In this document: positions 1 to 19,766 of the stretch, one piece after another
How the letters are laid out: every line of letters starts with the position of its first letter
Numbering within the stretch: position 1 is the first letter of the stretch
NCBI RefSeq assembly: GCF_003259835.1
Contig: NZ_QLMI01000009.1
Location: forward strand, 1 to 64,000
Direction of reading: 5' to 3'
Source of the DNA: Flavobacterium aquaticum
Lineage (GTDB): Bacteria > Bacteroidota > Bacteroidia > Flavobacteriales > Flavobacteriaceae
DNA length: 64,000 nucleotides
Notes under the pieces: model-generated
The model's input: only the letters and a program-made list of their open reading frames with translations
The model's database searches: none
What the model was told of the DNA's origin: nothing
Translations under genes and position numbers: made by a program

Positions 1-76
1 TTTTTCAACTTTTTTTAAAGTTTTTTTGATTTGTTTAATCTTCAGCTTGTGTGTGAACTTCTGCTCTAATGCGGGT

Positions 77-107
77 GCAAAAGTAGAAATCTTTTTTGTT
101 CCCACAA
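77..107 (-). promoter_or_regulatory. Leftward promoter, probably of an rRNA operon outside the window
   Basis: Read on the minus strand, TACTTTTGC (85-77) matches the Bacteroidetes -7 box TAnnTTTG, and TTG (107-105) lies 19 bp upstream as the -33 box. The start-site region reads TTTGCACCCGC, a form I associate with flavobacterial rRNA operon leaders. No reading frame follows before the left edge, which fits a long untranslated leader. The rRNA assignment is inference; the promoter match is direct. Confidence 0.55.
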
Positions 108-203
108 GGCTTTTAGCTTCTTTTTTTTGTGTTTTTTTTATTGTTTTTCTTAACATGCTGATAACAAGGATTTAATATGGGAAAGTTTTTTACATCCCCC
201 TAG

Positions 204-219
204 CCCCCTTCGAAGGGGG
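204..219. repeat. 16-bp perfect GC-rich palindrome
   Basis: CCCCCTTCGAAGGGGG is a perfect palindrome in otherwise AT-rich DNA, flanked by GAAAG (181-185) and CTTTC (224-228), which could extend a cruciform or hairpin. It resembles dispersed intergenic repeats of flavobacterial genomes. No gene is attached to it. Confidence 0.5.
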
Positions 220-303
220 AACGCTTTCTAAGAAGGATTCGTTTATTTTGTTTTATACTATATATATGTATAGTTTCAGGTTTCAAGTTTCAGGTGTGGG
301 CTT

Positions 304-394
304 AACTGCGTTAAGCAGTTGCCTGCTACGCAGGAGATTCCTATTCTGCGGAATGAAAACTCGCGGTGCGAGGAAAGAATGCTCGCGGTGCGAG
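304..394. repeat. Chain of five short perfect hairpins
   Basis: Five inverted repeats follow each other: AACTGC/GCAGTT (304-320), CCTGC/GCAGG (322-334), ATTCC/GGAAT (337-354), CTCGC/GCGAG (360-372) and CTCGC/GCGAG again (382-394). The last two are identical in a 14-bp direct repeat, and the GC-rich tract continues to about 420. Local GC content is far above the surroundings. An open frame of 62 codons crosses it but has no protein-like features, so it is treated as noncoding. Confidence 0.55.
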
Positions 395-454
395 GTGTTA
401 GCGCACGCTTCGCGAGCCAGTGGAATGGTTATCTGAAATACTAAACGTCTTGAA

Positions 455-546
455 TAGCCCCGATGGGAGTGGAAATCTTTTTTTGCCATGTTTCGAATTC
501 ACTTAAATATAACATGGCAAAAAAAATTGTAGTGGACAGCGGGACT
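455..546 (+). ncRNA. Flavo-1-like structured RNA element
   Basis: The conserved-looking left part, tagccccgatgggagtgg (455-472), faces a right part ending agtggacagcggga (531-544). Between them is a perfect 15-bp stem: seven T plus GCCATGTT (478-492) pairs with AACATGGC plus seven A (511-525), with an 18-nt loop. CCCG (459-462) can pair with CGGG (540-543) as an outer closing stem. The layout, with paired GGAAATC/GATTGT internal regions, matches the abundant flavobacterial intergenic element that I recall as the Flavo-1 RNA motif. Strand follows that recalled consensus. Its function is not established. Confidence 0.55.
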
Positions 547-610
547 AAAAGTCTTTATGGAAAACTAAAAAGATGCTTCTAATCTTTTTTAACATTATAC
601 CTTATATATA

Positions 611-641
611 TTGTATGGATTTTATTAATGGTTTATATTTG
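611..641 (+). promoter_or_regulatory. Promoter of the thrS-infC-rpmI-rplT operon
   Basis: TTG (611-613), 20 bp, then TATATTTG (634-641) is a full -33/-7 match to the Bacteroidetes consensus. Transcription would begin near 648, leaving about 14 nt before the thrS ATG. No T-box or attenuator hairpin is visible in this short leader. Confidence 0.75.
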
Positions 642-661
642 CAACTTATAAATTTTAAAAA

Positions 662-2602
662 ATGATAAAAGTTACTTTACCCGACGGGTCGGTTAAGGAG
701 ATGGCTCAAGGAGTTACTCCAATGGATGTTGCGAAAAGCATTAGTGAAGGTTTGGCTAGAAACGTGATTTCGGCTTCCTATAATGGTACCACTATTGAAA
801 CGACGACGACCTTAACGACGGACGGTACACTTATATTATATACGTGGAATGACAAAGAAGGTAAAAAAGCTTTTTGGCATTCGACTTCGCACGTGATGGC
901 GCAAGCTTTGGAAGAAATTTTCCCTGGTATTAAATTAACGCTTGGGCCTGCGATTGATAACGGTTTCTATTACGACGTAGATTTTGGTGATAAAAAAATT
1001 ACGGATGCCGATTTCAAAAAGATTGAAGATCGTGTGTTAGAAATTTCGAGAGAGAAACATGAGTTTAAAATGCGTTCGGTTTCTAAAGCTGAAGCATTGG
1101 AAATTTATAAAAATAATGAGTACAAAACCGAATTGATTTCGAATTTAGAAGACGGAACGATTACGTTCTGTGATCATTCGAATTTCTTTGATTTGTGTCG
1201 TGGTGGTCATATTCCGAATACAGGAATTATCAAAGCGATGAAAATTTTATCAGTGGCAGGTGCTTACTGGAGAGGTGATGAAAAGAATAAGCAGTTAACT
1301 CGTGTTTACGGAATTTCGTTCCCAAAACAAAAAGACTTAACGGATTACTTAGAATTATTAGAAGAAGCAAAACGCAGAGACCATAGAAAATTAGGAAAAG
1401 AATTAGAATTATTCCATTTCTCACAAAAAGTAGGTCAAGGTTTACCATTATGGTTACCAAAAGGAGCTGCTTTGCGCGATAGATTAGAGCAGTTCTTGAA
1501 AAAAGCGCAGAAAAAAGCAGGTTACGAGCAAGTAGTTACGCCTCACATTGGGATGAAAGACTTGTATGTAACTTCTGGACACTATGCTAAATATGGTGCG
1601 GATAGTTTCCAACCAATTCATACTCCAGCGGAGGGCGAAGAGTTCTTGCTAAAACCAATGAACTGTCCACACCACTGTGAGATTTACAATGCAAGACCTT
1701 GGTCGTATAAAGATTTACCAAAGCGTTATGCTGAATTTGGAACAGTGTATCGTTATGAACAATCGGGTGAATTACACGGCTTGACTCGTGTTAGAGGATT
1801 TACTCAGGATGATGCGCATATTTTCTGTACGCCTGATCAATTGGATGCAGAGTTCAAAAATGTAATCGACTTGGTATTGTATGTTTTTGGTTCATTAGGA
1901 TTTGAAAACTTTACGGCTCAGGTATCGGTTCGTGATTTAGATAATCCGGATAAATATATAGGTAGCGTTGAAAACTGGGAAAAAGCTGAAAATGCAATTA
2001 TCAGTGCAGCGAAAGATAAAGGATTGAATTATGTGATTGAAGCTGGAGAAGCGGCTTTCTATGGTCCGAAATTGGATTTCATGGTGAAAGATGCTTTAGG
2101 TAGAAGCTGGCAATTAGGAACGATTCAGGTAGATTACAATTTACCAGAGCGTTTTGAATTGTCTTATAAAGGTGCGGATGACAAGTTGCATCGCCCAGTT
2201 ATGATTCACCGAGCACCTTTTGGATCAATGGAACGTTTTATCGCTATTTTATTGGAACACACAGCAGGAAATTTCCCAATTTGGTTGATGCCAGAGCAGG
2301 CTATAATCTTGTCTTTGAGTGAGAAATATGAAAATTATGCGAAAAAAGTTTTAGATTTGCTAGAAAATCACGAAATTCGCGCCCTAATTGACAACCGAAA
2401 CGAAACAATCGGGAAGAAAATTAGAGAAGCGGAGATGAATAAATATCCGTTTATGCTGATTGTTGGCGAGGAAGAAGAGAAAAACGGAACCATTTCTGTT
2501 AGACAACGCGGACAAGAAGGAAAAGGAAATATATCGGTTACTATTGAGCAATTTGCTGCAATGATAAACGAAGAAATCAATAAAACATTAAAACAATTTT
2601 AA
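662..2602 (+). CDS. thrS: Threonine--tRNA ligase
   Basis: Charges tRNA-Thr with threonine in the cytosol. The 646 residues match the usual full length. In order: an N-terminal TGS domain (about 1-62), the editing domain with HSTSH (H73, H77) and a later CRGGH segment, the class II catalytic core with MNCPHH at about residue 335 (zinc-binding Cys), motif 3 around [16 protein letters not shown], and a C-terminal anticodon-binding domain. It is the first gene of an operon with three other translation genes; only 22 nt separate its stop from infC. The ATG lies just downstream of a good promoter. Confidence 0.97.
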
Positions 2603-2624
2603 GTTTAACTAAAATCTTAAAGCC

Positions 2625-3182
2625 ATAGCAATTAGAAACAACAGAGGTTTTCAACCTCGCGAAGAGAAAAAAGCAGCGCACCGTATCAACAATTTGATTC
2701 GTGTACCTGAAGTACGTTTAGTAGGCGAAAACATTGAGCCTGGAGTTTACAAAATAGCGGAAGCCCTTCGTTTAGCTGAAGAGCAAGAAGTTGATTTGGT
2801 AGAAATTTCTCCAAATGCTGAGCCACCCGTTTGTAAATTGATGGATTATGGTAAGTTTTTGTACCAACAAAAGAAGAGAGATAAAGAACTTAAAGCAAAA
2901 TCGACTCAGATTGTAATTAAAGAGATTCGTTTTGGACCTCAAACAGATGAGCATGATTATGAATTTAAGAAAAAGAATGCCCTTAAATTTTTACAAGATG
3001 GTGCTAAATTAAAAGCATTTGTATTCTTTAAAGGTCGTTCGATTATCTACAAAGAGCAAGGACAAATTTTATTATTACGTTTGGCTCAAGAATTGGAAGA
3101 GTTTGGAAAAGTAGAAGCGATGCCAGTTTTAGAAGGAAAACGTATGATTATGTACATTGCTCCGAAAAAGAAAGGAAAATAG
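2625..3182 (+). CDS. infC: Translation initiation factor IF-3, non-AUG start
   Basis: IF-3 binds the 30S subunit, prevents 50S joining and proofreads the start codon. The frame holds both IF-3 domains; the C-terminal part has [18 protein letters not shown] and [15 protein letters not shown]. No ATG, GTG or TTG lies between the upstream in-frame stop at 2610 and TTG 2694, yet the usual N-terminus ([15 protein letters not shown]) is encoded from 2628. I therefore place the start at ATA 2625, giving 185 residues; ATT 2631 is the alternative. A poor start codon is the known basis of IF-3 autoregulation in E. coli (AUU there). A TTG start at 2694 would remove 23 conserved residues. Confidence 0.9.
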
Positions 3183-3292
3183 TTTTAGTGATAAGTAATT
3201 AGTGATTAGTCGCTGAACTATACAAATAGTGATTACCAAGTAATCCTACATGAAAAATAATAAGTAAGATAGATTATAAATACAGGAAGAAA

Positions 3293-3490
3293 ATGCCTAA
3301 AATGAAAACGAAATCTAGTGCTAAGAAACGATTCAAAGTTACTGGTTCTGGAAAGATCAAAAGAAAACACGCTTTTAAAAGTCACATTTTGACTAAAAAA
3401 TCTAAAAAGCGTAAATTAGCTTTAACTCACTCTACATTGGTTCACCCAACAGATGAGAGAAGCATTAAACAACAATTGAATATTATTTAA
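3293..3490 (+). CDS. rpmI: 50S ribosomal protein L35
   Basis: Small basic component of the large ribosomal subunit. The 65 residues are full length and carry the family's start [15 protein letters not shown] and the [20 protein letters not shown]-type basic core. It sits between infC and rplT, the usual order. The 110-nt gap from infC is AT-rich, contains near-repeats of 'agtgatta', and shows no terminator, so the gene is probably co-transcribed. Confidence 0.96.
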
Positions 3491-3629
3491 TCGTTGTTTG
3501 GTTAAAACAATTTAGTAACCCTGGAGTGGGCTGAATGAAGAACAAAGTTAAAAGTACAAAGTATAAAGTATGATGTTCTACGTTTAAAAGTGTTGAGAAA
3601 CCGCCTTACTGCAAAAAACATTTAAAATT

Positions 3630-3974
3630 ATGCCAAGAGCAACAAATTCAGTAGCTACTAAAGCTAGAAAAAAAAGAGTATTAAAACAAGCCAAAGGTTT
3701 CTTTGGAAGACGTAAAAACGTTTGGACTGTAGCTAAAAACGCGGTAGAAAAAGCAATGGCTTATGCTTACCGTGATAGAAAACAAAACAAAAGAAATTTC
3801 CGTGCTTTATGGATTACGCGTATCAATGCTGGTGCACGTTTACATGGTATGAGTTATTCTCAATTTATGGGGAAAGTAAAAGCTAACAACATCGAATTGA
3901 ACCGTAAAGTTCTTGCTGATTTAGCTATGAACCACCCAGCTGCTTTCACAGCTATCGTTAACAAAATTAAATAA
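3630..3974 (+). CDS. rplT: 50S ribosomal protein L20
   Basis: Early-assembling 23S rRNA-binding protein. The 114 residues are of normal length and begin [20 protein letters not shown], with the conserved KGFFGRRKN and [20 protein letters not shown] segments. It closes the translation operon and is followed by a strong terminator. The 139-nt gap from rpmI holds short direct repeats (aaagtacaaagtataaagta); in other bacteria L20 represses this operon by binding leader RNA, but no such site can be named here. Confidence 0.97.
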
Positions 3975-4009
3975 TTACGTCTAACTCAGTTTATCTTACT
4001 TATATATTA

Positions 4010-4036
4010 AACCCCGATGAAAATCGGGGTTTTTTA
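4010..4036 (+). terminator. Terminator of the thrS-rplT operon
   Basis: AACCCCGAT (4010-4018) pairs perfectly with ATCGGGGTT (4023-4031) around a GAAA loop and runs into a T tract. It stands 35 nt after the rplT stop. Confidence 0.9.
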
Positions 4037-4061
4037 TTTGATGTGGTTTTGATTGTGGGGA

Positions 4062-4085
4062 CGGAATGGAATTCCGCGCTATCGG
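4062..4085 (+). repeat. 24-bp dispersed repeat, copy 1
   Basis: Contains ATTCCGCGCTATCGG preceded by CGGAATGG. The same 24-bp word, with one difference (GG versus GT), occurs in reverse orientation at 23031-23054. Both copies sit directly beyond a gene-end terminator, next to a leftward gene. Confidence 0.6.
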
Positions 4086-4125
4086 GATGTATTTTTATCA
4101 TATAGAGAATTTATTGTGAACTCTC

Positions 4126-5817
4126 TTAATTAAAATCAATTTCTTTTGGTATTGGAAAACCAGCTTTTCTATATATTTCTAATTTCCATTTACTATCCTC
4201 AATTTTCCACTTCTTCATTCTAAACTTTGTCCCCGAAATTAATTGTCTCATTTCACTAATTTCTTTTTTATATTCATCAGAAGCTTCATCTTGCTCAGAC
4301 TTAGATTTTTTATCCCATTCTGTAATTAGTTTCCACTTCTGAATTACATTTTCAATACTTTCTCTTTCATTCTGTTTTTGTCTTTCCCATTCAATATTAT
4401 TTCTTTTTAAAACTTCACCTAGTAATGCTTCTCTAACTGGATGTAAGAATACTTTGTTTTTTCCTCTTGAACCAGTAAGTTTTAGAGTAATTTGATCATT
4501 GAGCCATTTACCCAAATATGTTTTTTGTTTTGGAATCGTATTATAATTTTTTTCATCCTCATAATATTCTTCTAATTTTAACAAATTTTCAGCCCACTTG
4601 TCTTCATTTGCAATATTATTAGTACCAAAGTTTTCTGGAACTTCCCATAAAAAATTTATAGATTTCATTTTCTCTTCTTCATAATTCCAATCCCACTTTG
4701 GGGTTTCAAGACCTTTTCGTCTTCTTTTTTGCCTAACACACCAAACACCAAGTTCAAAATATGGCAGACTTTTATTTCTTGTATTTGGTACATATGTGAA
4801 ATCTAAATGACTTTGATATTTATTTTTAAAGGCCACCAATTCAGTAAATCTTATATCCCAAGTGTGTCTAATTTGTCCTTCCCATGCATTTCCTATAGGA
4901 AATCCAGCATCAATTAACTGACTTGCTAATTCATATGGTAACGCATCAGCTTTTATTAATTCTTTGATTCTTTTGTACCAATTGTATAAATCTCTATCCG
5001 AATTTTTTTTAGCAACAGCACCAGTAGATTTTATATCTCTTTTATAAATAATATATTTTTGTAAAAAATAGTTGAAATTTTCAAAGTCGCTTTTTGAAAT
5101 TGAAATTAATTTATTTCTTGATAACTTATTGTCTGGTTCATCACCTTGTCCAAATTCATTTTCAAAAAAAGGTGTGTATATGTATTTTTCAAATGGATTT
5201 TCACCATCATTTGATTGAATCTCATTTGATTGATTGAGAGATTTAAATTGAGAATATAATAAACCCATTTTATCATATTTTTCAATTAATTCTTTGTCTA
5301 ATTTAAAAACATTCTCATCTTTTAAATTTATTATGTCTTGAAAGTAGTCTTTTATCTCTTTTATTAATTTTTTTCCTTGTTTATCGGTTTCTGTTCTAAA
5401 ATCTAGTTGAACTGATGCTTCGATATTGCTTAAAAAACCAGAATTTGTTAAATTTGATGAACCTATAATAACCCTTGAATATGTTTTACCTTCAAATAAA
5501 AAAAGTTTTGGATGATAAGTTATAAACTCTTCATTTTTATGATAAATGAATACATCAATCTTATTTTCTAGTAAAATTTCCAACGATTGTTTTGAAGTTC
5601 CTTTATTATCAACTCCAATGAAGAATACTACTTTTTTATTATTTTCTTTTGCTTCTAATAAAAATTTCAACAATTTATTAACTCCTGAAACAGCTGTAAA
5701 AGCAACAAAACCTGTAATAACATCAAAATTTGGACTTATTAAAGAAGTTGCTATTTGGTCCCCAACGTTTAATTTATTCCTTTTATTTAATCCATGTCCA
5801 ATGAAATCTATTTGCAT
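4126..5817 (-). CDS. PLD-fold (NgoFVII-like) nuclease with helicase-associated repeats
   Basis: A 563-residue protein of uncertain role. The N-terminal third (about 1-165) resembles the phospholipase-D-type restriction endonuclease domain: H102-x-K104 is followed by GSSN (119-122) and a downstream E133, one half of a PLD catalytic site, so a dimer would be needed. Residues about 318-392 (HTWDIRFTELVAF...RQKRRR...INFLWEVP) and 405-480 (WAENLLKLEEYY...LGKWLNDQ...NNIEW) look like two helicase-associated (HA) repeats, but no helicase motors are present. The C-terminus is highly charged. It stands alone, opposite in strand to its flanking genes, with no methyltransferase beside it (the adjacent rlmF is an rRNA enzyme). 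A DNA-targeting defence nuclease is inference. Confidence 0.6.
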   Translation of the reverse strand: MQIDFIGHGLNKRNKLNVGDQIATSLISPNFDVITGFVAFTAVSGVNKLLKFLLEAKENNKKVVFFIGVDNKGTSKQSLEILLENKIDVFIYHKNEEFITYHPKLFLFEGKTYSRVIIGSSNLTNSGFLSNIEASVQLDFRTETDKQGKKLIKEIKDYFQDIINLKDENVFKLDKELIEKYDKMGLLYSQFKSLNQSNEIQSNDGENPFEKYIYTPFFENEFGQGDEPDNKLSRNKLISISKSDFENFNYFLQKYIIYKRDIKSTGAVAKKNSDRDLYNWYKRIKELIKADALPYELASQLIDAGFPIGNAWEGQIRHTWDIRFTELVAFKNKYQSHLDFTYVPNTRNKSLPYFELGVWCVRQKRRRKGLETPKWDWNYEEEKMKSINFLWEVPENFGTNNIANEDKWAENLLKLEEYYEDEKNYNTIPKQKTYLGKWLNDQITLKLTGSRGKNKVFLHPVREALLGEVLKRNNIEWERQKQNERESIENVIQKWKLITEWDKKSKSEQDEASDEYKKEISEMRQLISGTKFRMKKWKIEDSKWKLEIYRKAGFPIPKEIDFN

Positions 5818-5880
5818 ATTTTCTTAAATATTATTTTTATGTGCATTTTTGAAATATACTTGCAGTCAAATAGTACATCT

Positions 5881-5888
5881 CAAATATA
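5881..5888 (-). promoter_or_regulatory. Putative promoter of the PLD-fold nuclease gene
   Basis: TATATTTG on the minus strand matches the -7 box; no -33 TTG at the right spacing was found. It would give a leader of about 55 nt. It overlaps a possible upstream extension of rlmF, supporting a later start for that gene. Confidence 0.4.
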
Positions 5889-5974
5889 ATCAACTTTTCA
5901 ATAATTCTGTAGTAAAAACCTTCTTTATTATTATTCCCCAGAATTCAATACCTTTACACTTTAAAAACATTACT

Positions 5975-6874
5975 TTGAGTACGACCAAAACCATAACCGG
6001 CTTTCATCCGAAAAACAAGCACCACGGCAAATACGATTTTAAAACTTTAATTGCGGCTAACCCTGATTTAGCGCCATTTGTTGCGGTAAATGAATATGGA
6101 ACTGAAACGATTGATTTTGCTAATCCTGATGCGGTGAAAATGTTGAACAAAGCGTTGTTGTTGCATTTTTATGGTTTGAAAAATTGGGATATTCCAAAAG
6201 GATTTCTTTGTCCGCCTATTCCTGGACGTGCTGAATACATTCATCAAGTTGCCGATATTTTAGAAGATACGTTTGGCACGCTGCAAACGAAACATAAAAT
6301 TCGTATTTTAGATGTTGGTATTGGAGCGAATTGTATTTATCCGATTATTGGTGTTTCGGAATACGATTGGCGTTTTGTGGGTAGCGAAGTTGATAAACAA
6401 GCTTTTGAAGCGGCTCAGGAGAATATCAATTCGAATCAAAAATTAAAAGAAAACGTTGCGTTGCGATTGCAAACTTCAAAACGAAATATCTTTAAAAATA
6501 TCATTCTTCCAGAAGACAAATTCGACATGACGATTTGTAATCCGCCATTTCACAGTTCTAAAGAAGAAGCAAATAAAGGTACGATTCGTAAAAATAAAAA
6601 CTTAGGCATTGAAGATTCTAAAAAACCAACCTTAAACTTTGGTGGCGTAAATAACGAATTGTGGTGCGAAGGTGGCGAACTAACGTTCATCAGCAATATG
6701 ATTTATGAAAGCGTGCATTTTAAATCGCAATGCAAATGGTTTTCTTCTTTAGTTTCTAAAAAAGATAATTTGAAACCCTTGCTTTCGCATCTTAAAAAAG
6801 TAAAAGCAACCTACCAAATTACAGAAATGAAACACGGGAATAAAGTGAGTAGAATTTTGTTTTGGAAGTTTTAA
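5975..6874 (+). CDS. rlmF: 23S rRNA (adenine(1618)-N(6))-methyltransferase
   Basis: Methylates A1618 of 23S rRNA with S-adenosylmethionine. It has the family opening GFHPKNKHHGKYDF, then FANPDAVKMLNKALLLHFYG, the SAM-binding segment ILDVGIGANCIYP, and the N6-adenine methyltransferase motif CNPPFHSS. The frame is open from ATG 5849, but the first 42 residues there look unlike the family and would lie upstream of a TAnnTTTA box (5949-5956). I therefore prefer TTG 5975 (299 residues). Sure of function, less sure of start. Confidence 0.9.
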   Translation: MSTTKTITGFHPKNKHHGKYDFKTLIAANPDLAPFVAVNEYGTETIDFANPDAVKMLNKALLLHFYGLKNWDIPKGFLCPPIPGRAEYIHQVADILEDTFGTLQTKHKIRILDVGIGANCIYPIIGVSEYDWRFVGSEVDKQAFEAAQENINSNQKLKENVALRLQTSKRNIFKNIILPEDKFDMTICNPPFHSSKEEANKGTIRKNKNLGIEDSKKPTLNFGGVNNELWCEGGELTFISNMIYESVHFKSQCKWFSSLVSKKDNLKPLLSHLKKVKATYQITEMKHGNKVSRILFWKF

Positions 6875-7016
6875 AAGGTGATGGGTGATGGATGATGGGT
6901 GATGGGTTTTTAAGGGTTCTATAGTTCTCGATACATTTTGCATTTATAAATCTAAGGATTTACAAATACAAAACACTCGAAGTGACGGAAGAAAAAAATA
7001 ATTAATAAAGAACATT

Positions 7017-7475
7017 ATGCAAGAATTACATAAGCTTTTAGATCAATTACAATCGGATATTTCGTCTTTTGATAAAGTGAATTTAGCGGTTTCTTCGGGA
7101 AGTGTAGGTTGGCACATTGCGCATAGCTTAAAAACGATTGACCAAATTGTTACGGCTTGTAAACATTCAAATCCGTCGGAATATCAATGGCATTTTAATT
7201 TTAAACGCTTTTTAATTATGTCAGTAGCGAAAAAGATTCCAAGAGGAAAAGCAAGAGCTCCAAAAATCGTAAGACCTGAAGGTGATATTTCTCCTGAAAC
7301 TTTGGCTTTAAGTTTAGAAAACGTGAGAGAAAATATAAAAAATTGGAAAAGTTTGGATAAAAATACTCATTTTCCACATCCGTTTTTTGGAGTTTTAAAT
7401 AAAAAGGAAACGGAGAACTTTTTAGTATTGCATACCAAACATCATAGGATGATTATTAAGGATATTTTGAAATAA
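7017..7475 (+). CDS. DinB-superfamily (DUF1569-like) protein
   Basis: A 152-residue soluble protein likely to form the DinB four-helix metal-binding bundle. The SVGWHIAHS segment near residue 32 and the C-terminal LHTKHHRMI supply the spaced histidines that bind a divalent metal in this superfamily; HPFFGVLNKKE is typical of the DUF1569 branch. Bacillithiol-dependent transferases share the fold, but no specific substrate can be named. The upstream gap (6875-7016) has a tgatggg microrepeat (6877-6906) and a fragment of the 'tatagttctcga...tcgaagtgac' repeat seen near 60350. Confidence 0.75.
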   Translation: MQELHKLLDQLQSDISSFDKVNLAVSSGSVGWHIAHSLKTIDQIVTACKHSNPSEYQWHFNFKRFLIMSVAKKIPRGKARAPKIVRPEGDISPETLALSLENVRENIKNWKSLDKNTHFPHPFFGVLNKKETENFLVLHTKHHRMIIKDILK

Positions 7476-7479
7476 AAAA

Positions 7480-8544
7480 CTACTCAGATTTTTTATTTAT
7501 TTTTTCCATAATAATCTTTTCCATTTCTCCAATTGAGGGATCAATAGCTATTAGTACTCCTTTATCATCAATTAAAAAAATTGAAGGAATTGCTTTAACT
7601 CCATAGGTTTTGACAACTTCTCCATCAAATTCGCCATTTTCTAAAACATTATCCCATTTCATATTTTCTTTCTGAATGGCTTTAATCCATTTTAATCGAT
7701 CGGCATCTAGTGAAACGCTAAGTATTTTAACATTATGCAACTTAACCTTTTCATATAACTTTGTTAATTGAGGTAATTTTTTTCTACATGGCACACACCA
7801 TGAAGCCCAAAAATCAATAATTAAAATGTTTCCTCTATACGATTCTGTATTAATCAAAATATTATTCTCATTTGGTAATTCAAAATCAGTAATAAAATCA
7901 CCAACTTGTATTTTTTCTCTAGGATAAAGCATCTCTTTTATGTTACTAATTAGATTAGAATTTTGAGCAACTGTATCAATTTTTTGAAAAATCAATTTCA
8001 AATCCTCAAAATTAGCTATTGAATCTTGAGCCGCAAAATATAAAAGTTCGCCAGAAAAATGATTTTTAGGATGTAACGAAACTATTTCATCTATTTTTTT
8101 GTACTTGTTTTTTTGCCAATTTTCGTTTCTAGGTAAAGACGCAATATAACTTGAATATTCTTTTTCTAACTCACTTGTTTGCGTTCCTGAAATATCTTTT
8201 AATACTATCCAATCATACTCGGTTTCATTGTATTTTTTTCTTTGAATTTCAATGGTAACATAAATTTTCTTGTTCTCTAAAAATACATCTTTATCCATTG
8301 ATGATGTTCGATTAGTTAAAAATCGAGTAGCATAAACAATTTCTTCAGACGTAATTCCAGAAAAATAAAATTTATTAGCAACAACTAAACAACTATCTTT
8401 CTTATCATTGTAATTAAAAAACAAATACCCATTGTAATTTCCTTCAATTTGTCCAAAAATCTCGAATTTATTTCTTCCATCTTGAGCAGAAAGTAGATTA
8501 ACAATAAAGAATAATGATATAAATATGGTTTTAATTAAATTCAT
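7480..8544 (-). CDS. Exported TlpA-like thioredoxin-fold protein (DUF4369 N-terminus)
   Basis: An extracytoplasmic thiol-disulfide protein of 354 residues. Residues 1-20 form a signal peptide (hydrophobic, ending LLSAQ). The region to about 205 resembles the DUF4369 module of Bacteroidetes redoxins (GQIEGNYNGYLFFNY...). The thioredoxin/AhpC-TSA domain follows, with C250-V-P-C253 in FWASWCVPC and the cis-Pro segment KAIPSIFLI. It lies 10 nt downstream of the next gene and is probably co-transcribed. The redox role is from family knowledge; the partner is unknown. Confidence 0.88.
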   Translation of the reverse strand: MNLIKTIFISLFFIVNLLSAQDGRNKFEIFGQIEGNYNGYLFFNYNDKKDSCLVVANKFYFSGITSEEIVYATRFLTNRTSSMDKDVFLENKKIYVTIEIQRKKYNETEYDWIVLKDISGTQTSELEKEYSSYIASLPRNENWQKNKYKKIDEIVSLHPKNHFSGELLYFAAQDSIANFEDLKLIFQKIDTVAQNSNLISNIKEMLYPREKIQVGDFITDFELPNENNILINTESYRGNILIIDFWASWCVPCRKKLPQLTKLYEKVKLHNVKILSVSLDADRLKWIKAIQKENMKWDNVLENGEFDGEVVKTYGVKAIPSIFLIDDKGVLIAIDPSIGEMEKIIMEKINKKSE

Positions 8545-8554
8545 AAAAGAAGTG

Positions 8555-9832
8555 TTACGTTTTCAACTTTTTCTTTCTTGCAGCAGGAAACAAGACATTA
8601 TTCAAAATCAAGCGATAACCTGGCGAATTTGGATGTAAGTCCAATACTGTTGGAGCATCTCCTACTCTATGTTGATAATCTTCTGGATCGTGACCTCCAT
8701 AAAACGTAAACATTCCTTTTCCTTTGGTTCCATGAATGTATCTTGCTTCACCATTGATTTTACATTCGCCCATTACTAAGACGTTGGATTTTATTTTCTC
8801 GGCATCAAAAGCGGTAGTTTGCCCCATGAAACCTTTTACTAATTGGGTGTGATTTTGGCACAACATTGTAGGAATTGGATCCCATTTTGCCGAATATTCC
8901 ATTAAAGTGAAATAGTCTTTATCCATAGAAAAAGCACCTTTTCCGTGTTCTTCAGTAGTATCAATATCGGAGAATTCGTAAACCATTGGATTTCGAACTA
9001 AAGTATAATCTTTGAAAGCAAATGTGCTCGTGTAATCTATTCGGGATTGATAATTAGCTTCTGAATCATCACCATCAAACATAGGCTCGCAAATATCAAC
9101 TCCTTCGGCCGAAAGTGCAATATCAAAACTATCGGTTGCCGAACACATCGCAAACATAAATCCGCCACCAATTACAAAATCTCTGATTTTTTTAGCCACA
9201 GCCAACTTTTCCTCCGAAACTTTGTTGTAACCTAACTTCTTTGCCAAAGCTTCAGCATCAGCTTTTTGTTGGATGTACCAAGGTGTATTTCTATAATTTC
9301 CAAAGAACTTTCCGTACTGACCTGTGAAATCTTCGTGATGCAAGTGCAACCAATCATATAACAACAATTGATCAGACAACACTTCTTCATCGTAAATTTC
9401 TGTATAGGGAATTTCAGCATAGGTTAACACCATAGTTACGGCATCATCCCAAGGTTGTTTTCCTTTTGGAGTATAAACTGCAATTTTGGGTGCTTTTTCT
9501 AAAACAACCGTTTCCATATTTTGCGATGGCGAACTGATATCTTCTAAAATTGAATTTGTAGCGGCATCCGATAACACTTCAAAAGTAACACCACGAATTT
9601 GACATTCTTTTCTGATTTCAGGCGCGTCGGGTAATAAAAACGAACCGCCTCTATAGTTTAACAACCAACTTACTTTGTAACTTTTATCTAAAGCCCAATA
9701 GGTAATTCCGTATGCTTTTAAGTGATTTTGTTGTCCTTCAGCCTCCATTGGTAATAAAACAAAAGAAGCTCTACTCGAAAATGAGCAAAGAAAAAAGAAT
9801 ACTATAAATAGGTTGAGTCCTTTAAATTTCAT
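8555..9832 (-). CDS. Secreted protein of the type labelled 'asparagine synthetase B' in Bacteroidetes
   Basis: A 425-residue protein with a clear signal peptide (residues 1-22). Family members in this phylum are, as I recall, often named asparagine synthetase B, but the cytosolic enzyme's N-terminal Cys glutaminase and PP-loop synthase motifs are absent. What is visible is a class I glutamine amidotransferase/ThuA-like pattern: KIAVYTP at about 116, DWLHLHHED (160-168), a nucleophile-elbow-like GGGFMFAMC (222-230), and GMFTFYGGHDPEDY near the C-terminus. A role in the periplasm is implied; the reaction is unknown. First gene of a two-gene leftward operon with an almost leaderless promoter. 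Confidence 0.75.
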   Translation of the reverse strand: MKFKGLNLFIVFFFLCSFSSRASFVLLPMEAEGQQNHLKAYGITYWALDKSYKVSWLLNYRGGSFLLPDAPEIRKECQIRGVTFEVLSDAATNSILEDISSPSQNMETVVLEKAPKIAVYTPKGKQPWDDAVTMVLTYAEIPYTEIYDEEVLSDQLLLYDWLHLHHEDFTGQYGKFFGNYRNTPWYIQQKADAEALAKKLGYNKVSEEKLAVAKKIRDFVIGGGFMFAMCSATDSFDIALSAEGVDICEPMFDGDDSEANYQSRIDYTSTFAFKDYTLVRNPMVYEFSDIDTTEEHGKGAFSMDKDYFTLMEYSAKWDPIPTMLCQNHTQLVKGFMGQTTAFDAEKIKSNVLVMGECKINGEARYIHGTKGKGMFTFYGGHDPEDYQHRVGDAPTVLDLHPNSPGYRLILNNVLFPAARKKKLKT

Positions 9833-9838
9833 GGATTA

Positions 9839-9846
9839 CAAATATA
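9839..9846 (-). promoter_or_regulatory. Promoter -7 box of the exported two-gene operon
   Basis: TATATTTG on the minus strand ends only 6 nt before the ATG at 9832, so the transcript would have almost no 5' leader. The best TTG (9874-9872) is 25 bp upstream, wider than usual. Confidence 0.55.
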
Positions 9847-9901
9847 ATTGACTAATTTATAACATTTCTAACAAATATCATTTATCGAAATGTTAAAGTC
9901 G

Positions 9902-9966
9902 TACCCCCGTAAAAATACCTGGTTACCCCCGTAAAAATACCTGGTTTGAAAATCAGGTATTTTTAC
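9902..9966. promoter_or_regulatory. Perfect 22-bp tandem repeat plus inverted copy, candidate operator
   Basis: The 22-bp word starting TACCCCCGTAAAAATACC occurs twice head to tail (9902-9923 and 9924-9945). Its core GTAAAAATACCTG (9931-9943) is then repeated inverted as CAGGTATTTTTAC (9954-9966), so repeat 2 can form a 13-bp stem with a 10-nt loop. It lies 26 nt before a TAGTTTTG promoter box and beyond the end of a NarL-type regulator gene. Binding by that regulator is inference. Confidence 0.6.
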
Positions 9967-9991
9967 GCTTACACAGGATTTTTTTTTGTCA

Positions 9992-9999
9992 TAGTTTTG
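9992..9999 (+). promoter_or_regulatory. Promoter -7 box of the 45-residue membrane protein gene
   Basis: TAGTTTTG fits TAnnTTTG exactly and stands 25 nt before the ATG at 10025. No -33 TTG is present; the repeat cluster ends 25 bp upstream, as expected if an activator replaced the -33 contact. Confidence 0.5.
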
Positions 10000-10024
10000 A
10001 CTTGTATCAAAATAAGAAAAAAAG

Positions 10025-10162
10025 ATGGACACAAACAGTAGTAATTTATCGTTAATAAACTCGAAAGAAATGAAATTGTTAAAAAGAATCGGATATATTG
10101 TGCTTATTATAACTATCCTGGTGTATTTTGTTTTAGTTTTTCAATTCTGCAGAACTTATTAA
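10025..10162 (+). CDS. 45-residue single-pass membrane protein
   Basis: A short frame starting at ATG and ending at TAA. It encodes a polar N-terminus (MDTNSSNLSLINSKEM), a positively charged stretch KLLKR (17-21), a hydrophobic helix of about 18 residues (GYIVLIITILVYFVLVFQ) and a short tail FCRTY. Charge placement predicts an inner-membrane protein with the N-terminus inside. It has its own promoter box and converges on the response-regulator gene. No family is recognised. It is a plausible target or partner of the adjacent signalling operon. Confidence 0.55.
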   Translation: MDTNSSNLSLINSKEMKLLKRIGYIVLIITILVYFVLVFQFCRTY

Positions 10163-10182
10163 TAAATTTGTAAATACACTTT

Positions 10183-10869
10183 TTAAGACTCTATATCGTT
10201 ATGAGAGTCTTCTAGGTTTATGATTTTGTTTTGTATGGCAAATATGACTAATCCTGCCATATTTTTAGAATTTGTTTTTAGCAAAAGGTTATTTCTGTGA
10301 CCATCCACTGTTCTCGTGCTTAAGCTTAGCATTTCACCAATTTCGGAAGAACTATATTGTTTACAAATTAATTCCAACACTTCTTTTTCTCTTTCCGTTA
10401 AGAAATCTTCATCTAAAACGGTTCTTGAAGTTGCATTTGAAATCATGTTTTGATGAATTACTTCCATCACGATTTCATTGTAATAAAATCCTTTTTGAGC
10501 TACTTCGTTAACGGTTTTAATCATATCAATTGGAGAAGCATTTTTAACTAAATAAGATGCCGCGCCCACATTAATCATATTAGCAATAAACGATTTGGTA
10601 TTGTAACTCGTTAAAGCAATGATTCGAATTGCTGGAAAATCTTTGTGAATTAATTTAGTTGCTTCTACTCCATTTAATAATGGCATTTTTAAATCCATCA
10701 TAATGATATCAGGAAGTTCGGTAGTAGTTTTCAAATGCTCCACTAACTCACTACCATTGGAAGCTTCAAAAATAATTTCAAAATTAGGCTCACGCTGAAG
10801 TAAGAAATAAATTCCTTTTCTGAACAATTCTTCATCGTCTGCTAAAATTATTTTGACTTTATTTTCCAT
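10183..10869 (-). CDS. NarL/LuxR-family response regulator
   Basis: A cytosolic two-component regulator of 228 residues. The receiver domain (about 4-125) has the acidic pocket D11-D12, phospho-acceptor D59 in MMDLKMP and a conserved Lys in YLVKNASP. The LuxR helix-turn-helix (about 158-215) begins LTEREKEVLELI and includes LSTRTVDGHRNNL. Its ATG overlaps the kinase stop by one base, so the two are translationally coupled. The nearby 22-bp repeat is a candidate binding site. Confidence 0.93.
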   Translation of the reverse strand: MENKVKIILADDEELFRKGIYFLLQREPNFEIIFEASNGSELVEHLKTTTELPDIIMMDLKMPLLNGVEATKLIHKDFPAIRIIALTSYNTKSFIANMINVGAASYLVKNASPIDMIKTVNEVAQKGFYYNEIVMEVIHQNMISNATSRTVLDEDFLTEREKEVLELICKQYSSSEIGEMLSLSTRTVDGHRNNLLLKTNSKNMAGLVIFAIQNKIINLEDSHNDIES

Positions 10870-11663
10870 TAATTAAAATTAAATATCATTTTTACTCCTT
10901 CATTTGGTTTAGAAGTAAAATTGAAATTCCCCCCTAAGAAGTTAATTCTACTTTCTATATTCTTCATTCCCAAACCTTTTTGATTTTCTTCACTTGAACT
11001 ATCAAAACCTAATCCATTATCAATATAAGTACAGGTTTTTTGGTTATCGAAATTAGTAAATTGGATTGAAATTTCAGTAGCTTTTCCGTGTCGAAGCGAA
11101 TTATTTAACAATTCTTGTAAGATGCGAAATATATGTAGATGTTTTTCAATAGGATAGCTTTCGAAGTCAAGTTGGTTTTCGTAAGAAACTTTAACAGTTT
11201 TGGTACTGTTAAACTCTTCTACGAGTTCTTCAATTCCGGCATGAAGTCCAAATTTCTCTAAAACGGGTGGTAATAAATCGTGTGCAATACGTCTTGAATT
11301 CTCTAACGCTTTTTGTGTTAATTCGATGATATTATTGGTAATTTCTAATTGTTCCGATTCGCTTAGATTAGGAGTTTTTAATAAATGACTATTTAACGAA
11401 ACTACATTCAATTTTGAACTAATATCATCATGCAAATCTTGAGCAATACGTTTGCGTTCTTCTTCTTGGGTTATTAAAACCGAATTCAACAACTCTTTTT
11501 GGTGTTCAATTTCTAAGTTTTTTTTATCAACTTCAATTTGAACGATTTTTTTTCTTGAAAAATAGAAAAACAAAATCAGTACCAAAAACATGGATATAAA
11601 AGCAAGTAATATGAAAAATACTCCTTGAATTATTTCGCTATTTTCTAAATTAATTGAGTTCAT
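10869..11663 (-). CDS. NarX/DegS-type sensor histidine kinase
   Basis: A 264-residue kinase with a single N-terminal membrane helix (about 11-35), no sizeable sensor domain, a coiled linker, a HisKA_3 dimerisation domain with phospho-acceptor H78 in RIAQDLHDD, and a HATPase_c domain (LQELLNNSLRHG, DNGLGFD, GLGMKNIESR). The missing sensor domain suggests that the signal comes through another protein. Its start overlaps the end of the upstream membrane-protein gene by 14 nt. Pairs with the downstream regulator. Confidence 0.92.
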   Translation of the reverse strand: MNSINLENSEIIQGVFFILLAFISMFLVLILFFYFSRKKIVQIEVDKKNLEIEHQKELLNSVLITQEEERKRIAQDLHDDISSKLNVVSLNSHLLKTPNLSESEQLEITNNIIELTQKALENSRRIAHDLLPPVLEKFGLHAGIEELVEEFNSTKTVKVSYENQLDFESYPIEKHLHIFRILQELLNNSLRHGKATEISIQFTNFDNQKTCTYIDNGLGFDSSSEENQKGLGMKNIESRINFLGGNFNFTSKPNEGVKMIFNFN

Positions 11664-12285
11664 TTTTATTAAAATAAATTAATTTCCATTGGTAAAAGAA
11701 AAATCCAAATTTTATGTATTGAAGTGTAATATTTATTATTGTCATCACATCGCCTATTTTGTCATCAATATCCAAAACAACATATAACCTATAAATTAAG
11801 AAAATAAAAGTACTTGTAAATAAATAAAACAACAAACCAATATTACCGTAATAAAAATCTGATTTTTCGCCAAGATTATTATACAAATGCATACTTGAAT
11901 AAACAATTAAAGGCATTGTTGTTAAGTATGGTTCCAAATGATTATACTCAAAAAACAAATTCGGATCAATAAGATATCGAGACAATAAAAAAACTGGAAG
12001 CACAATTAGTAGAATGTAAACTGTAAGTAACTGTGCTCTTGTTTTTAACAATAAAGAAAAAAAATAACTTAAGATTACAAATTGAAACAATTCATAAAAA
12101 TGTTGCATAAAAACATTATAAATACGAAACCATCTCCATAAATTAGAACTAATAAAATCTATTAATAAAACACCTATTATATAAAATGTAAAAATCTTAT
12201 AGGTTTTCCCACTTTTGAAAAAACCTATAAGATAAAGCGAGCATAATAATGCCGACGTTATGAATAAATAACCTGAAGGTTTCAA
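11650..12285 (-). CDS. Polytopic membrane protein, putative signal input of the kinase
   Basis: A 211-residue protein with about six or seven hydrophobic helices separated by short loops rich in Tyr and Phe. There is no signal peptide cleavage site and no recognised domain. It overlaps the histidine kinase by 14 nt and follows the 102-residue gene by 9 nt, so all four are one transcription unit. Because the kinase has only one membrane helix and no input domain, this protein may serve as its sensor; that is inference from gene order. Confidence 0.75.
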   Translation of the reverse strand: MKPSGYLFITSALLCSLYLIGFFKSGKTYKIFTFYIIGVLLIDFISSNLWRWFRIYNVFMQHFYELFQFVILSYFFSLLLKTRAQLLTVYILLIVLPVFLLSRYLIDPNLFFEYNHLEPYLTTMPLIVYSSMHLYNNLGEKSDFYYGNIGLLFYLFTSTFIFLIYRLYVVLDIDDKIGDVMTIINITLQYIKFGFFFYQWKLIYFNKNELN

Positions 12286-12294
12286 TATTACTAA

Positions 12295-12603
12295 CTATGG
12301 ATTGTAAAGAGGACTCGTGGGATCACAATTCTTTGGACAAGGTTCTGTATTATCATAAATCAAATGGTTAGCATCTATTAAATCTTTACCATTTGCATCT
12401 ACACCTACAAACATTAATTTTTGTGTTCCTGTTTCATCTACTCCCATGTAAGCTCTCACATCAACAACTCCATTTGTTGCTAATAGTTCTGATAATGCTC
12501 CTCCAGGAATTAAATGACCTTTTGCTAAATCTTTTGGGGGGTTAGTTCTCCATGATGTTGCCCATGCTTTGGCTACATCGAGAGTAATTGTAAAATCTGG
12601 CAT
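12295..12603 (-). CDS. Conserved hypothetical protein, first gene of the signalling operon
   Basis: A 102-residue soluble protein with no signal peptide or membrane segment. It starts MPDFTITLDVAKAWATSWR, has a central VDVRAYMGVDETGTQKLMFVGVDANGKD and ends in a Cys/Pro tail (EPCPKNCDPTSPLYNP). I recall similar small proteins in other flavobacteria but know no function. As the first gene of an operon with a membrane protein, kinase and regulator, it could be a ligand, modulator or antagonist of the kinase. A weak TACATTTA box (12638-12631) precedes it. Confidence 0.72.
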   Translation of the reverse strand: MPDFTITLDVAKAWATSWRTNPPKDLAKGHLIPGGALSELLATNGVVDVRAYMGVDETGTQKLMFVGVDANGKDLIDANHLIYDNTEPCPKNCDPTSPLYNP

Positions 12604-12655
12604 ATTTTTAAATTTTTTATAATTGAATTATAAATGTAATAAAAAAGAAATAAAA

Positions 12656-12679
12656 AAAACAGGCTAATTGCCTGTTTTT
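12656..12679 (-). terminator. Terminator after dnaB
   Basis: AAAACAGGC (12656-12664) pairs with GCCTGTTTT (12670-12678) around a 5-nt loop. On the minus strand it ends in a run of T, directly after the dnaB stop and before the signalling operon. Confidence 0.85.
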
Positions 12680-12699
12680 AACTTTTAATCTATTTTTTT

Positions 12700-14247
12700 T
12701 TAAAACGGAACATCAGAATCATCATCAAATGAATTCATGGTACTACCAAAAGCTTCATTAGGCGTAGGTAAATTTGGCGTGATAAATGGATTACTATCAT
12801 CTAAATTCATTTTTGAGGGCAATGCATCGAAAGGCGAACTAAAATCATCTAAATTATCAAACTTTCCTAAGTTACCAATGAATTTCAATCGGATGTTATC
12901 TAAGCCTCCATTACGGTGTTTTGCTACGATAAACTCGGCTTGACCTTGAGTTGGCGAACGCTCTTCGTCATCCCATTCGTCAATTTTATAATATTCTGGA
13001 CGGTAAATAAACGATACGATATCGGCATCTTGCTCAATTGCTCCTGATTCCCTTAAGTCGGAAAGTAACGGACGTTTACTAGAACCACGAGTTTCAACGG
13101 CACGAGATAACTGCGAAAGCGCAATTACCGGAACGTTCAATTCTTTTGCTAATGCTTTTAAATTTCTAGAAATAGTTGAAATTTCTTGCTCACGGTTACC
13201 GCCTCCTTTTCCGTTTCCACCTGCTGTCATCAATTGAAGGTAATCGATTACAATCATTTTGATGCCGTATTGCGATGAAAGTCGTCTTGCTTTTGCACGT
13301 AAATCGAAAATCGATAACGATGGTGTATCATCAATATATAAAGGTGCTTTTTCCAAGTCTTTCACCTTAATAGACAATTGCTCCCATTCGTGTTTTTCTA
13401 ATTTTCCTGTTCTTAATTTCTCAGAAGACAATCCTGTTTCAGACGAAATCAAACGTGTAATTAACTGTACAGATGACATCTCTAATGAGAAAAAGGCCAC
13501 TGGCGCACCATAATCGATAGCCATATTTCGTGCCATTGATAACGTAAAAGCCGTTTTACCCATACCTGGACGAGCTGCCACAATAATTAAATCCGAAGGT
13601 TGCCATCCAGAAGTTAATTTATCTAAATTGTGAAATCCTGTTGGAATTCCACTCAAACCTTCTTTACCTGCAATTTCTTCAATACGTTTTTTTGCCTGAA
13701 TCACTAAACTTTGTGCAGTTTCCGAACTACGTTTGATGTTTCCTTGCGTTACTTCGTATAATTTTGATTCTGCTTTATCTAACAAATCGAATACATCAGT
13801 AGATTCATCATACGATTCTTCAATAATTTCGCTTGAAATTTTAATCAAACTTCTTTGAATAAATTTTTGAAGAATAATACGTGAGTGAAACTCAATGTGA
13901 GCCGAAGATGATATCTTTTGCGTTAACTGAATCAAGTAAAAATCACCACCTGAAAGTTCTAGTTTTCCGTTTTTCTTTAATTGAGCAGAAACGGTTAATA
14001 AGTCGATAGGCTGTGTTTCGTTAAACAACTGAACAATAGCTTCAAAAATGTACTTGTGAGCGTCTTTATAAAAGGCATCTGGTTGTAAAATATCAATTAC
14101 TTCATCTACCCCTTTTTTATCAATCATCATGGCACCAAGTACCGCTTCTTCTAGGTCTAACGCCTGAGGAGGTAGTTTTCCTTTTTCCAAATTGATAATC
14201 GTAGTTTTATCTACTTTTATCGGGTTCATATTTCTGACATTTTCCAT
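12700..14247 (-). CDS. dnaB: Replicative DNA helicase
   Basis: Hexameric helicase that unwinds DNA at the replication fork. The 515 residues comprise the N-terminal DnaB domain (about 25-130), a linker, and a RecA-like motor with Walker A ARPGMGKT (about 225-232), FFSLEM, Walker B MIVIDYLQLM, and the Arg-finger region REQEISTISRNLKALAKEL. The C-terminal tail (GSTMNSFDDDSDVPF) is acidic. No intein is present. It stands between its own terminator and that of accA. Confidence 0.97.
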   Translation of the reverse strand: MENVRNMNPIKVDKTTIINLEKGKLPPQALDLEEAVLGAMMIDKKGVDEVIDILQPDAFYKDAHKYIFEAIVQLFNETQPIDLLTVSAQLKKNGKLELSGGDFYLIQLTQKISSSAHIEFHSRIILQKFIQRSLIKISSEIIEESYDESTDVFDLLDKAESKLYEVTQGNIKRSSETAQSLVIQAKKRIEEIAGKEGLSGIPTGFHNLDKLTSGWQPSDLIIVAARPGMGKTAFTLSMARNMAIDYGAPVAFFSLEMSSVQLITRLISSETGLSSEKLRTGKLEKHEWEQLSIKVKDLEKAPLYIDDTPSLSIFDLRAKARRLSSQYGIKMIVIDYLQLMTAGGNGKGGGNREQEISTISRNLKALAKELNVPVIALSQLSRAVETRGSSKRPLLSDLRESGAIEQDADIVSFIYRPEYYKIDEWDDEERSPTQGQAEFIVAKHRNGGLDNIRLKFIGNLGKFDNLDDFSSPFDALPSKMNLDDSNPFITPNLPTPNEAFGSTMNSFDDDSDVPF

Positions 14248-14334
14248 ATTGCGAAGTTAACCAAAATTTACAAAAAAACGTTTTGAGTTCTTAATACCAA
14301 ACTGTTAATAACTTAAAAAAAGTGTTGATAAGCC

Positions 14335-14369
14335 AAAAAAAATCCGAAACTTATGGCTTCGGATTTTTA
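14335..14369 (-). terminator. Terminator after accA
   Basis: AAATCCGAA (14340-14348) pairs with TTCGGATTT (14358-14366) around a 9-nt loop; on the minus strand it ends in a T run, about 25 nt after the accA stop. Confidence 0.85.
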
Positions 14370-14390
14370 TTTATAATTGGAAACAAGTGA

Positions 14391-15344: not shown

Positions 15345-15376
15345 AATCGGTTTATTAGGGTTTGTGTTTGTTGTGA

Positions 15377-15384
15377 CAAAGATA
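15377..15384 (-). promoter_or_regulatory. Promoter -7 box of accA
   Basis: TATCTTTG on the minus strand, 33 nt before the accA ATG. A -33 TTG at normal spacing is not visible. Confidence 0.5.
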
Positions 15385-15415
15385 AAATTTTCAATTAACT
15401 TTAGTAAACTTATCG

Positions 15416-17378: not shown

Positions 17379-17392
17379 ATTTTAAGTTTCAA

Positions 17393-17440
17393 GTTTCAGG
17401 TTTCAAGTTTCAAACCAACATGAAACTTGAAACCTGAAAC
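17393..17440. repeat. Inverted 'gtttcaagtttcagg' repeat
   Basis: The 20-bp arm GTTTCAGGTTTCAAGTTTCA (17393-17412) pairs perfectly with its reverse complement (17421-17440) across an 8-nt loop. Shorter forms of the same word occur at 272-293 and inside the tandem array near 60380-60402 and 60653-60676. It separates tgt from the LptF/G-like gene and could act as a transcript end. Confidence 0.65.
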
Positions 17441-17445
17441 CAATT

Positions 17446-18576: not shown

Positions 18577-18595
18577 ATTGTGCTTTTACTAACGG

Positions 18596-18603
18596 CAAAG
18601 ATA
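18596..18603 (-). promoter_or_regulatory. Promoter -7 box of tgt
   Basis: TATCTTTG followed by C on the minus strand, 20 nt before the tgt ATG at 18576. Confidence 0.5.
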
Positions 18604-18660
18604 AATTAATTTAGAAATATGAATTTAGAATTTAGAATTATTTATGATAAGACAATACAT

Positions 18661-19762: not shown

Positions 19763-19766
19763 AATT

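Follow-up and report, generated by a model that had tools for sequence, protein, structure and literature searches.

The closest described systems to the gene reported here are restriction enzymes built around a PLD nuclease domain. BfiI (type IIS) has a B3-like DNA-binding domain at its C-terminus and a cognate methyltransferase, as part of a restriction-modification (R-M) system, and HA repeats are otherwise known as appendages of helicases. SauUSI (type IV) carries an SF2 ATPase and an SRA recognition domain, and its nuclease domains dimerise so that both HxK motifs build the catalytic site, in a manner reminiscent of BfiI (available text of PMC7913695). NgoAVII and CglI are multi-gene R-M systems in which the R protein (PLD plus B3) is accompanied by a separate ATPase subunit (available text of PMC7913695 and PMC4267653). 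Aba4572I and CbaI are described as single-chain PLD-winged-helix (PLD-wH) fusion endonucleases of a proposed type IV, with the winged helix as a 6mA reader, and the terms “helicase” and “HA domain” are absent from the searched text of that source (PMC11037411). Our literature searches found no paper on a fusion of a PLD nuclease with HA repeats; these searches cover subscription journals thinly, and novelty is not thereby proven. Here we describe such a fusion, PLD-HA, in the window (the whole 64-kb stretch of Flavobacterium aquaticum DNA analysed), and propose, with a probability of roughly 0.6, that it is a one-gene restriction-type nuclease against foreign DNA that would be dimeric and guided by its HA repeats.

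The gene is an intact open reading frame of 563 aa (4126..5817, minus strand), and all features of the protein given below lie on that strand. Its N-terminal PLD nuclease domain (residues 1-165; 5323..5817) matches Pfam PLDc_2 (34.9 bits versus a cut-off of 27, E 1.6e-8) and RE_NgoFVII (24.1 versus 23.8, E 2.6e-5), and its C-terminal part matches HA (PF03457; 43.7 bits versus 28.4, E 3.4e-11, two stretches). An earlier reading of this DNA from its letters (the sequence-only reading) had predicted profile matches to both PLD nucleases and HA repeats, and all three profiles are indeed over their cut-offs. It had also named one half of a PLD catalytic site (H102-x-K104, GSSN, E133), which holds up: H102, K104, N122 and E133 align with H, K, N and E of BfiI, positions that we take to be its catalytic residues, and all four are invariant in 40/40 members of an alignment of the window protein with 39 loci. 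These residues fall in the motif H102-P-K104 (5506..5514), in S120-S121-N122 within the GSSN motif (5452..5460), where S120 is likewise invariant in 40/40, and at E133 (5419..5421), the fourth residue of the BfiI-type set. A PDB sequence search at E 1 returned BfiI as its sole match (E 0.007).

The HA segments claimed by the sequence-only reading are present, although their number has to be revised from two to three on the basis of the structure model and of relatives. HA-like repeat 1 (residues ~241-307; 4897..5097) is recognized from model helices and from a Pfam HA match at the equivalent site in L050 and L055, and is not among the two Pfam-passing stretches of the window protein. Repeat 2 (residues ~311-393; 4639..4887) contains the best Pfam HA stretch (318-369) and exceeds the cut-off alone with 28.9 bits in the genome profile search, while repeat 3 (residues ~402-479; 4381..4614), found by the same search and by the model, scores 22.7 bits alone, under the cut-off. 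Before the repeats lies an acidic linker (residues 188-235; 5113..5256; net charge -5), whose charge averages -5.8 over the 40 members and is zero or positive in 7/40; it is a possible autoinhibitor of the nuclease. The protein ends in a helical tail (residues 480-563; 4129..4380; model helices 479-503, 506-510, 514-534 and 539-551). The window protein has no Pfam match to an SF2 ATPase or an SRA-type recognition domain, and a B3-like C-terminal domain is absent, as Pfam gives HA only in the C-terminus and the C-terminal model is helical. Two other identities were rejected: DrmC of DISARM, since the score of 15.1 bits is far under the NCBIfam equivalog cut-off of 133, and ZacB of PADLOC, since the match covers just 61 residues of the PLD core (the literature search returned no relevant paper for the name ZacB).

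In the AlphaFold2 model of the window protein (mean pLDDT 81.6, pTM 0.44), a loose linker connects the PLD domain to three HA-like units and the tail, all of them helical. Its top Foldseek matches are SauUSI, BfiI and NgoAVII, and by VIA-align the nuclease domain superimposes on SauUSI (7CLG) with Z 20.0 and rmsd 2.0 over 172 aligned residues (24% identity) and on BfiI (2C1L) with Z 17.0 and rmsd 3.2 over 181. For the C-terminal model, the fold search reached a best Z of 4.4 and matched no solved fold, by which a new fold is not shown; in a profile search, positions 165-245 of the C-terminal alignment match 2KTA, the HA domain of a putative helicase (E 0.0018).

To define the family, we used a genome-contig scan that returned 52 loci, 40 of which encode proteins of at least 500 aa; these 40 and the truncated or broken L044, L057 and L058 make up a family of 43 loci, from which L056 (no HA match) and L059-L066 (279-390 aa, PLD part only) were dropped. 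L015 was left out of the alignment (A3) because its reading frame shifts near the C-terminus. PLDc_2 is found in 40/40 members and HA in 39/40 at E 0.01 (the exception is L054); Pfam recognises the HA unit six times in L046 and L047, twice in the window protein and L022, and once in L050, L055 and L037. L005, L006 and L056 have a PLD domain of the same kind and a C-terminus without a Pfam match, so the nuclease domain is joined to various C-terminal modules. All 43 family loci carry the names of Bacteroidota organisms, and those placed in the gene tree are assigned to that phylum. Presence is patchy: of 199 relatives, 12 have some match and four (G000, G030, G051 and G056) have PLD and HA together, whereas HA domains of any kind occur in 7/199, the remainder being a helicase-like protein in G112 and two short HA-only proteins. 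The latter (L164 4560-5153 and L165 5092-5688) contain three HA matches each, leave no space for another domain and sit between unrelated genes.

Whole-gene dN/dS was 0.05-0.16 in 12 close pairs, some of which share members. In the HA region it was 0.01-0.16, higher than in the PLD domain in 6/12 pairs and equal or lower in 6. We read these values as purifying selection on this region; the strong diversification of the HA repeats that we had considered is not seen. One linker value reached up to 0.51, on 75 codons. Between the window copy and that of F. frigoris, dN was 0.19 and dS 1.22 over 484 aa. In a quick tree, the window copy clusters with Sphingobacteriaceae copies (SH-aLRT 92) and not with other Flavobacterium copies; the Sphingobacteriaceae clade includes a Flavobacteriaceae MAG, the end branch of the window copy is long and L015 is not in the tree, and the placement thus suggests, and does not prove, movement of PLD-HA between families. 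A phage origin was rejected, with no relative in viral contigs (two peptide patterns) or in phages, as was a plasmid origin, with 8 plasmid records covering at most 32% of the query.

The gene is flanked on both sides by plus-strand genes, which read from their sequences as rplT (left neighbour; 3630..3974) and rlmF (right neighbour, an rRNA methyltransferase-like gene; 5975..6874 from the open reading frame and relatives, its listed start at 5849 being probably too early). The insertion opposite to these genes that the sequence-only reading had described is confirmed by the two closest relatives by rplT that lack PLD-HA and keep the right flank (G023 and G032): sequence identity is 92-94% in the flanks, which stop at 4096 on the left and resume at 5928-5931 on the right, and the segment between them (4097..5927) is missing in both and replaced by another gene. 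In these genomes the slot holds a 343-aa protein in the same orientation as PLD-HA, and that of G023 matches TIR_2 and the PADLOC model SpbK (7.5e-54). SpbK is an NADase that protects via abortive infection, according to the available text of PMC12847820 and PMC11984713. The 24-bp dispersed repeat that had been noticed beside the gene (4063..4086, plus strand) is real, with 2 window copies at up to 3 mismatches versus 0 in 100 shuffles and 4 genome copies of its first 23 bases at up to 2 mismatches. It lies in the left flank common to relatives and is older than the insertion, because G023 and G032 carry it in the equivalent flank beside their different gene.

A survey of the slot covered 36 genomes (our own and 35 fetched, some regions being short), and in 8 of them rlmF lies within ~9 kb of rplT. 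These 8 slots hold PLD-HA (1), the TIR gene (2), nothing (3; G011, G038 and G039), transporter-like genes identified by reading (G009) and other genes (G012); that only 3/8 hold PLD-HA or the TIR gene counts against our reading. In G020, where rlmF is out of reach, AbiL-like genes and an integrase piece follow rplT. Insertion linked to a tRNA was rejected, as no tRNA is present in window positions 1-20000. As separate observations, the G012 slot (L103 484-2203) contains three genes without Pfam or PADLOC matches at E 0.01, which are candidate defence genes, and a Bacteroidales PLD-HA copy (L029 2737-9001) lies ~6 kb from an rplT gene. Together with the rlmF neighbours of the window copy and of G051, this Bacteroidales copy may hint at favoured insertion places.

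The proximity of two family copies to an rRNA methyltransferase-like gene also bears on a different possibility, that the protein cuts RNA with its PLD domain and binds it through the HA repeats, so that translation is stopped in infected cells. Zucchini, which acts in the piRNA pathway, is among the PLD relatives in the structure match list, and HA repeats, otherwise parts of helicases, might bind RNA. However, DNA restriction enzymes head the structural matches, and rlmF adjoins PLD-HA only in the window and G051 and in 0/43 other loci, whose flanks are uneven in length; we thus consider an RNA-cutting effector unlikely.

Around relatives we noticed series of genes on one strand, spaced ~150 bp apart, and intergenic sequences that recur, which led us to scan for attC sites. 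Versions 1 (3/37 downstream and 5/40 upstream exceeding the 99% control level) and 2 (11/41 loci; controls 4/419, shuffles 43/1580) of the scan were weak because pairing was required through the entire R box and spacer, and the final version 3 was designed once these results were known. With it, an attC-like site directly flanks the gene in 23/41 loci, in 14 of these on both sides, versus 0/211 and 0/207 in controls from 35 Flavobacterium rplT regions; at a lower threshold of 7, the counts were 26/41 loci and 3/211 and 3/207 controls. Gene ends of L015 and L057 were set manually in the final scan, and the downstream result of L057 was discounted because its gene end had been set 48 bases short. 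Relatives thus carry, behind the stop codon, attC-like sites whose R and L boxes pair, and L015, the closest known relative of the window copy, has an attC-like site immediately 3' of the gene.

Across 19 aligned attC-like sites, 93.4% of cells pair and covariation is 0.743, versus 0.175 in shuffled and at most 0.131 in slid alignments (10 sites of a second type, A8, being excluded from the covariation count). A covariance model at E 0.01 found 92 sites in 28/43 loci, 92/92 of them on the strand of the nuclease gene. As the covariation test and the model were built from sites that the scan found, they are not independent of the choice of scan, and 19 of the 92 matches built the model; the better evidence is the other 73, likewise all on the gene strand, together with zero sites in the window and the 35 rplT regions. 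The matches are not all independent, because some loci repeat segments (L046), and those in L003 and L004 fall on contigs that are apparently those of L046 and L048. Even at E 1, the model finds no site in the window, the 35 control regions, L136, L002, L005 or L006. Many PLD-HA copies are therefore integron-like cassettes, whereas the window copy is not a cassette at present; the cassettes would be expected to move. Copies of the Pedobacter group sit in arrays, and the nearest upstream gene in L046 matches HEC-06 and is flanked by attC-like sites. No Rfam family was found in L016, L027 or L046. In F. aquaticum itself, 11 attC-like sites have E values of 1.5e-4 or lower.

Cassette arrays might also maintain a selfish or toxin-like nuclease of no benefit to the host. 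The arrays hold many genes without an assigned use, and toxin-antitoxin-like pairs (Gp49 and HTH) occur near the copies in L018, L019 and L041. Yet these pairs are self-contained and confined to 3/43 loci, and whole-gene dN/dS is below 0.2 in each tested pair, which makes a nuclease without host benefit improbable.

Among the neighbours of PLD-HA, cluster 1 comprises eight tyrosine recombinases. In five loci (L016, L020, L034, L043 and L054), a related recombinase lies ahead of every detected attC, and in L043 it is encoded on the opposite strand. L032 and L056 have a recombinase of a different type, located after the detected attC in L032, and L022 has a fragment. The L020 recombinase passes NF040815 and that of L054 falls short by 0.6 bits, while against TIGR02249 (cut-off 265) they score 219 and 207 bits in two pieces, below the level of the canonical integron integrase IntI. 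The F. aquaticum recombinase also matches TIGR02249 as two separate parts, which score 115 and 99 bits; the unmatched middle is presumably the IntI-specific part. This 592-aa tyrosine recombinase lies at a contig end (C5 885-2663, minus strand; L172). Behind it come a gene of 205 aa and, less than 1 kb from the recombinase, an attC-like site (89-220); the locus is probably the start of the cassette array of the strain. Elsewhere in the window, a 300-aa frame (60794-61603, minus strand) with a tyrosine recombinase match in two pieces is probably a Xer protein.

Among 100 relatives, at least 59 have attC-like sites and 40 have the recombinase at E 1e-70. Counting the sites listed, the two are associated over all 100 genomes (35/40 versus 24/60, p 1.5e-6, a value that shared ancestry inflates) and outside the genus (5/7 versus 3/32, p 0.0017), and not significantly within the genus (30/33 versus 21/28, p 0.16). 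On 12 contigs, all 31 tabulated sites within 40 kb are downstream of the recombinase and on its strand, again among the sites listed; the count omits a far site at 2116036 on G045:C1, and many sites are on other contigs. Of three further contigs with both, G026:C4 agrees (same strand, ~32 kb) and G019:C23 and G022:C1 disagree (>100 kb). Integrons in the phylum are not new, since a review counts Bacteroidota among integron phyla (available text of PMC8618304), while the one complete integron in Bacteroidetes proper named in the available text on IntegronFinder 2.0 is that of Salinibacter ruber (PMC9024848). Vibrio integron cassettes are reported as anti-phage stores (available text of PMC12444791). 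The recombinase under the integron-integrase cut-off is the boldest, the most tentative and perhaps the most novel lead from these sequences. Our tentative view, which we hold at less than even odds, is that Bacteroidota have a widespread integron-like cassette system with a Xer-like recombinase without the integron-integrase-specific part, that PLD-HA would be a recurrent cargo of it, and that how many HA repeats a protein has (one, three or six) would set the DNA that is read.

PLD-HA has no regular partner. As the sequence-only reading had stated, no helicase or DNA methyltransferase is adjacent to it in the window, as judged from the open reading frames. Of the 140 genes located one or two positions away from a family locus (43 loci), at most 5 share a Pfam family (HTH, three overlapping models), no PADLOC family occurs more than once, and one gene matches a model for type II methyltransferases and one a model for type I specificity. 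A constant association of homologues with known restriction systems, which would have refuted the sequence-only reading, is therefore not seen. A motif scan found methyltransferase-like genes in the flanks of 3/43 loci, each of a different type by reading: D12-like in L022, m5C-like (183 aa) in L052 and, 3-8 kb away, a type I-like set in L058. The L058 copy itself (3-5941) is cut by the contig end and lies 3 kb after this type I R-M-like set, which includes an OLD-like ATPase.

These flanking genes are what might be expected if PLD-HA were a classical restriction enzyme with its protecting methyltransferase encoded elsewhere in the genome, as its structural relatives BfiI and NgoAVII sit in R-M systems (NgoAVII: available text of PMC4267653). 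F. aquaticum does have at least one DNA methyltransferase, on a 4-kb contig (C14; L181) where a type II methyltransferase and restriction enzyme (245-2375) are followed by an attC-like site (2387-2512). However, methyltransferase-like flanks in just 3/43 loci, each of another type, argue against this arrangement, and if the gene has moved between families, as its tree suggests, it would often lack an unlinked protector; we give this arrangement a low probability. Even less likely is that the HA repeats dock onto an unlinked helicase to form an ATP-dependent nuclease. NgoAVII and CglI do split nuclease and ATPase over two subunits (available text of PMC7913695), but the window protein is the only HA protein that the HA profile search found in its own genome, a single HA protein among the 199 relatives (G112) reads as a helicase, and SF2-like genes were found by motif scan only near L015 (SecA-like), L021 and L058 and differ in kind.

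We therefore return to the one-gene restriction-type nuclease as our preferred explanation. This reading is supported by the profiles, the invariant active site, the SauUSI, BfiI and NgoAVII folds, the HA matches in 39/40 members with up to six stretches, the low dN/dS, the patchy presence, the lack of a regular partner, the slot swap with an SpbK-like TIR gene, the attC-like sites, and the R-M pair and HEC-06-like gene near attC. The stand-alone defence nuclease proposed by the sequence-only reading is thus strengthened by restriction-enzyme folds, TIR swap and cassette context, while its dimer, DNA substrate and phage protection keep the standing of predictions. Mechanistically, the PLD domain would dimerise, with two HxK motifs forming one metal-independent active site in the manner of BfiI and SauUSI; the HA repeats would form a helical array that grips DNA, providing recognition in place of a B3 or SRA domain and an ATPase; and the acidic linker may hold the nuclease inactive before it binds its target. 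That target would more likely be an unusual DNA structure or a modified base than a sequence guarded by self-methylation, because there is no regular methyltransferase companion and purifying selection acts on the HA region. In many Bacteroidota, PLD-HA would move as an integron-like cassette, and here it fills a slot that a TIR gene takes in two related species. Several observations count against this explanation: neighbours mostly share no common PADLOC family, 7/10 cassette or neighbour proteins tested individually have no PADLOC match, the C-terminal model resembles no solved fold, the linker is non-acidic in 7/40 members, the window copy lacks attC, and 3/43 flanks do have methyltransferase-like genes.

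Compared with known systems, PLD-HA belongs with the PLD restriction nucleases, as a variant. It shares with BfiI the PLD domain and the H/K/N/E positions, and differs in having HA repeats and no adjacent methyltransferase. SauUSI has the closest fold to its nuclease domain and is likewise a single polypeptide, whereas the window protein has no profile for an SF2 ATPase or SRA. NgoAVII and CglI resemble it in combining a PLD nuclease with a recognition module, but are multi-gene systems with an ATPase subunit, while the window nuclease is a lone gene. On the HA side, 2KTA is an isolated domain of 74 residues named as a putative helicase and without a nuclease, which the window protein has. If our reading is true, one small gene that reads its target through repeats would suffice for restriction-type defence and need neither ATPase nor methyltransferase. 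The HA repeat, a helicase appendage, would then gain a testable DNA-reading role, and the cassette context would indicate that Bacteroidota harbour a large stock of candidate defence genes. Aba4572I and CbaI offer the nearest parallel in architecture, a PLD nuclease fused to a small DNA reader in a single chain, with the difference that their reader is a winged helix for 6mA and that of the window protein would be its HA repeats.
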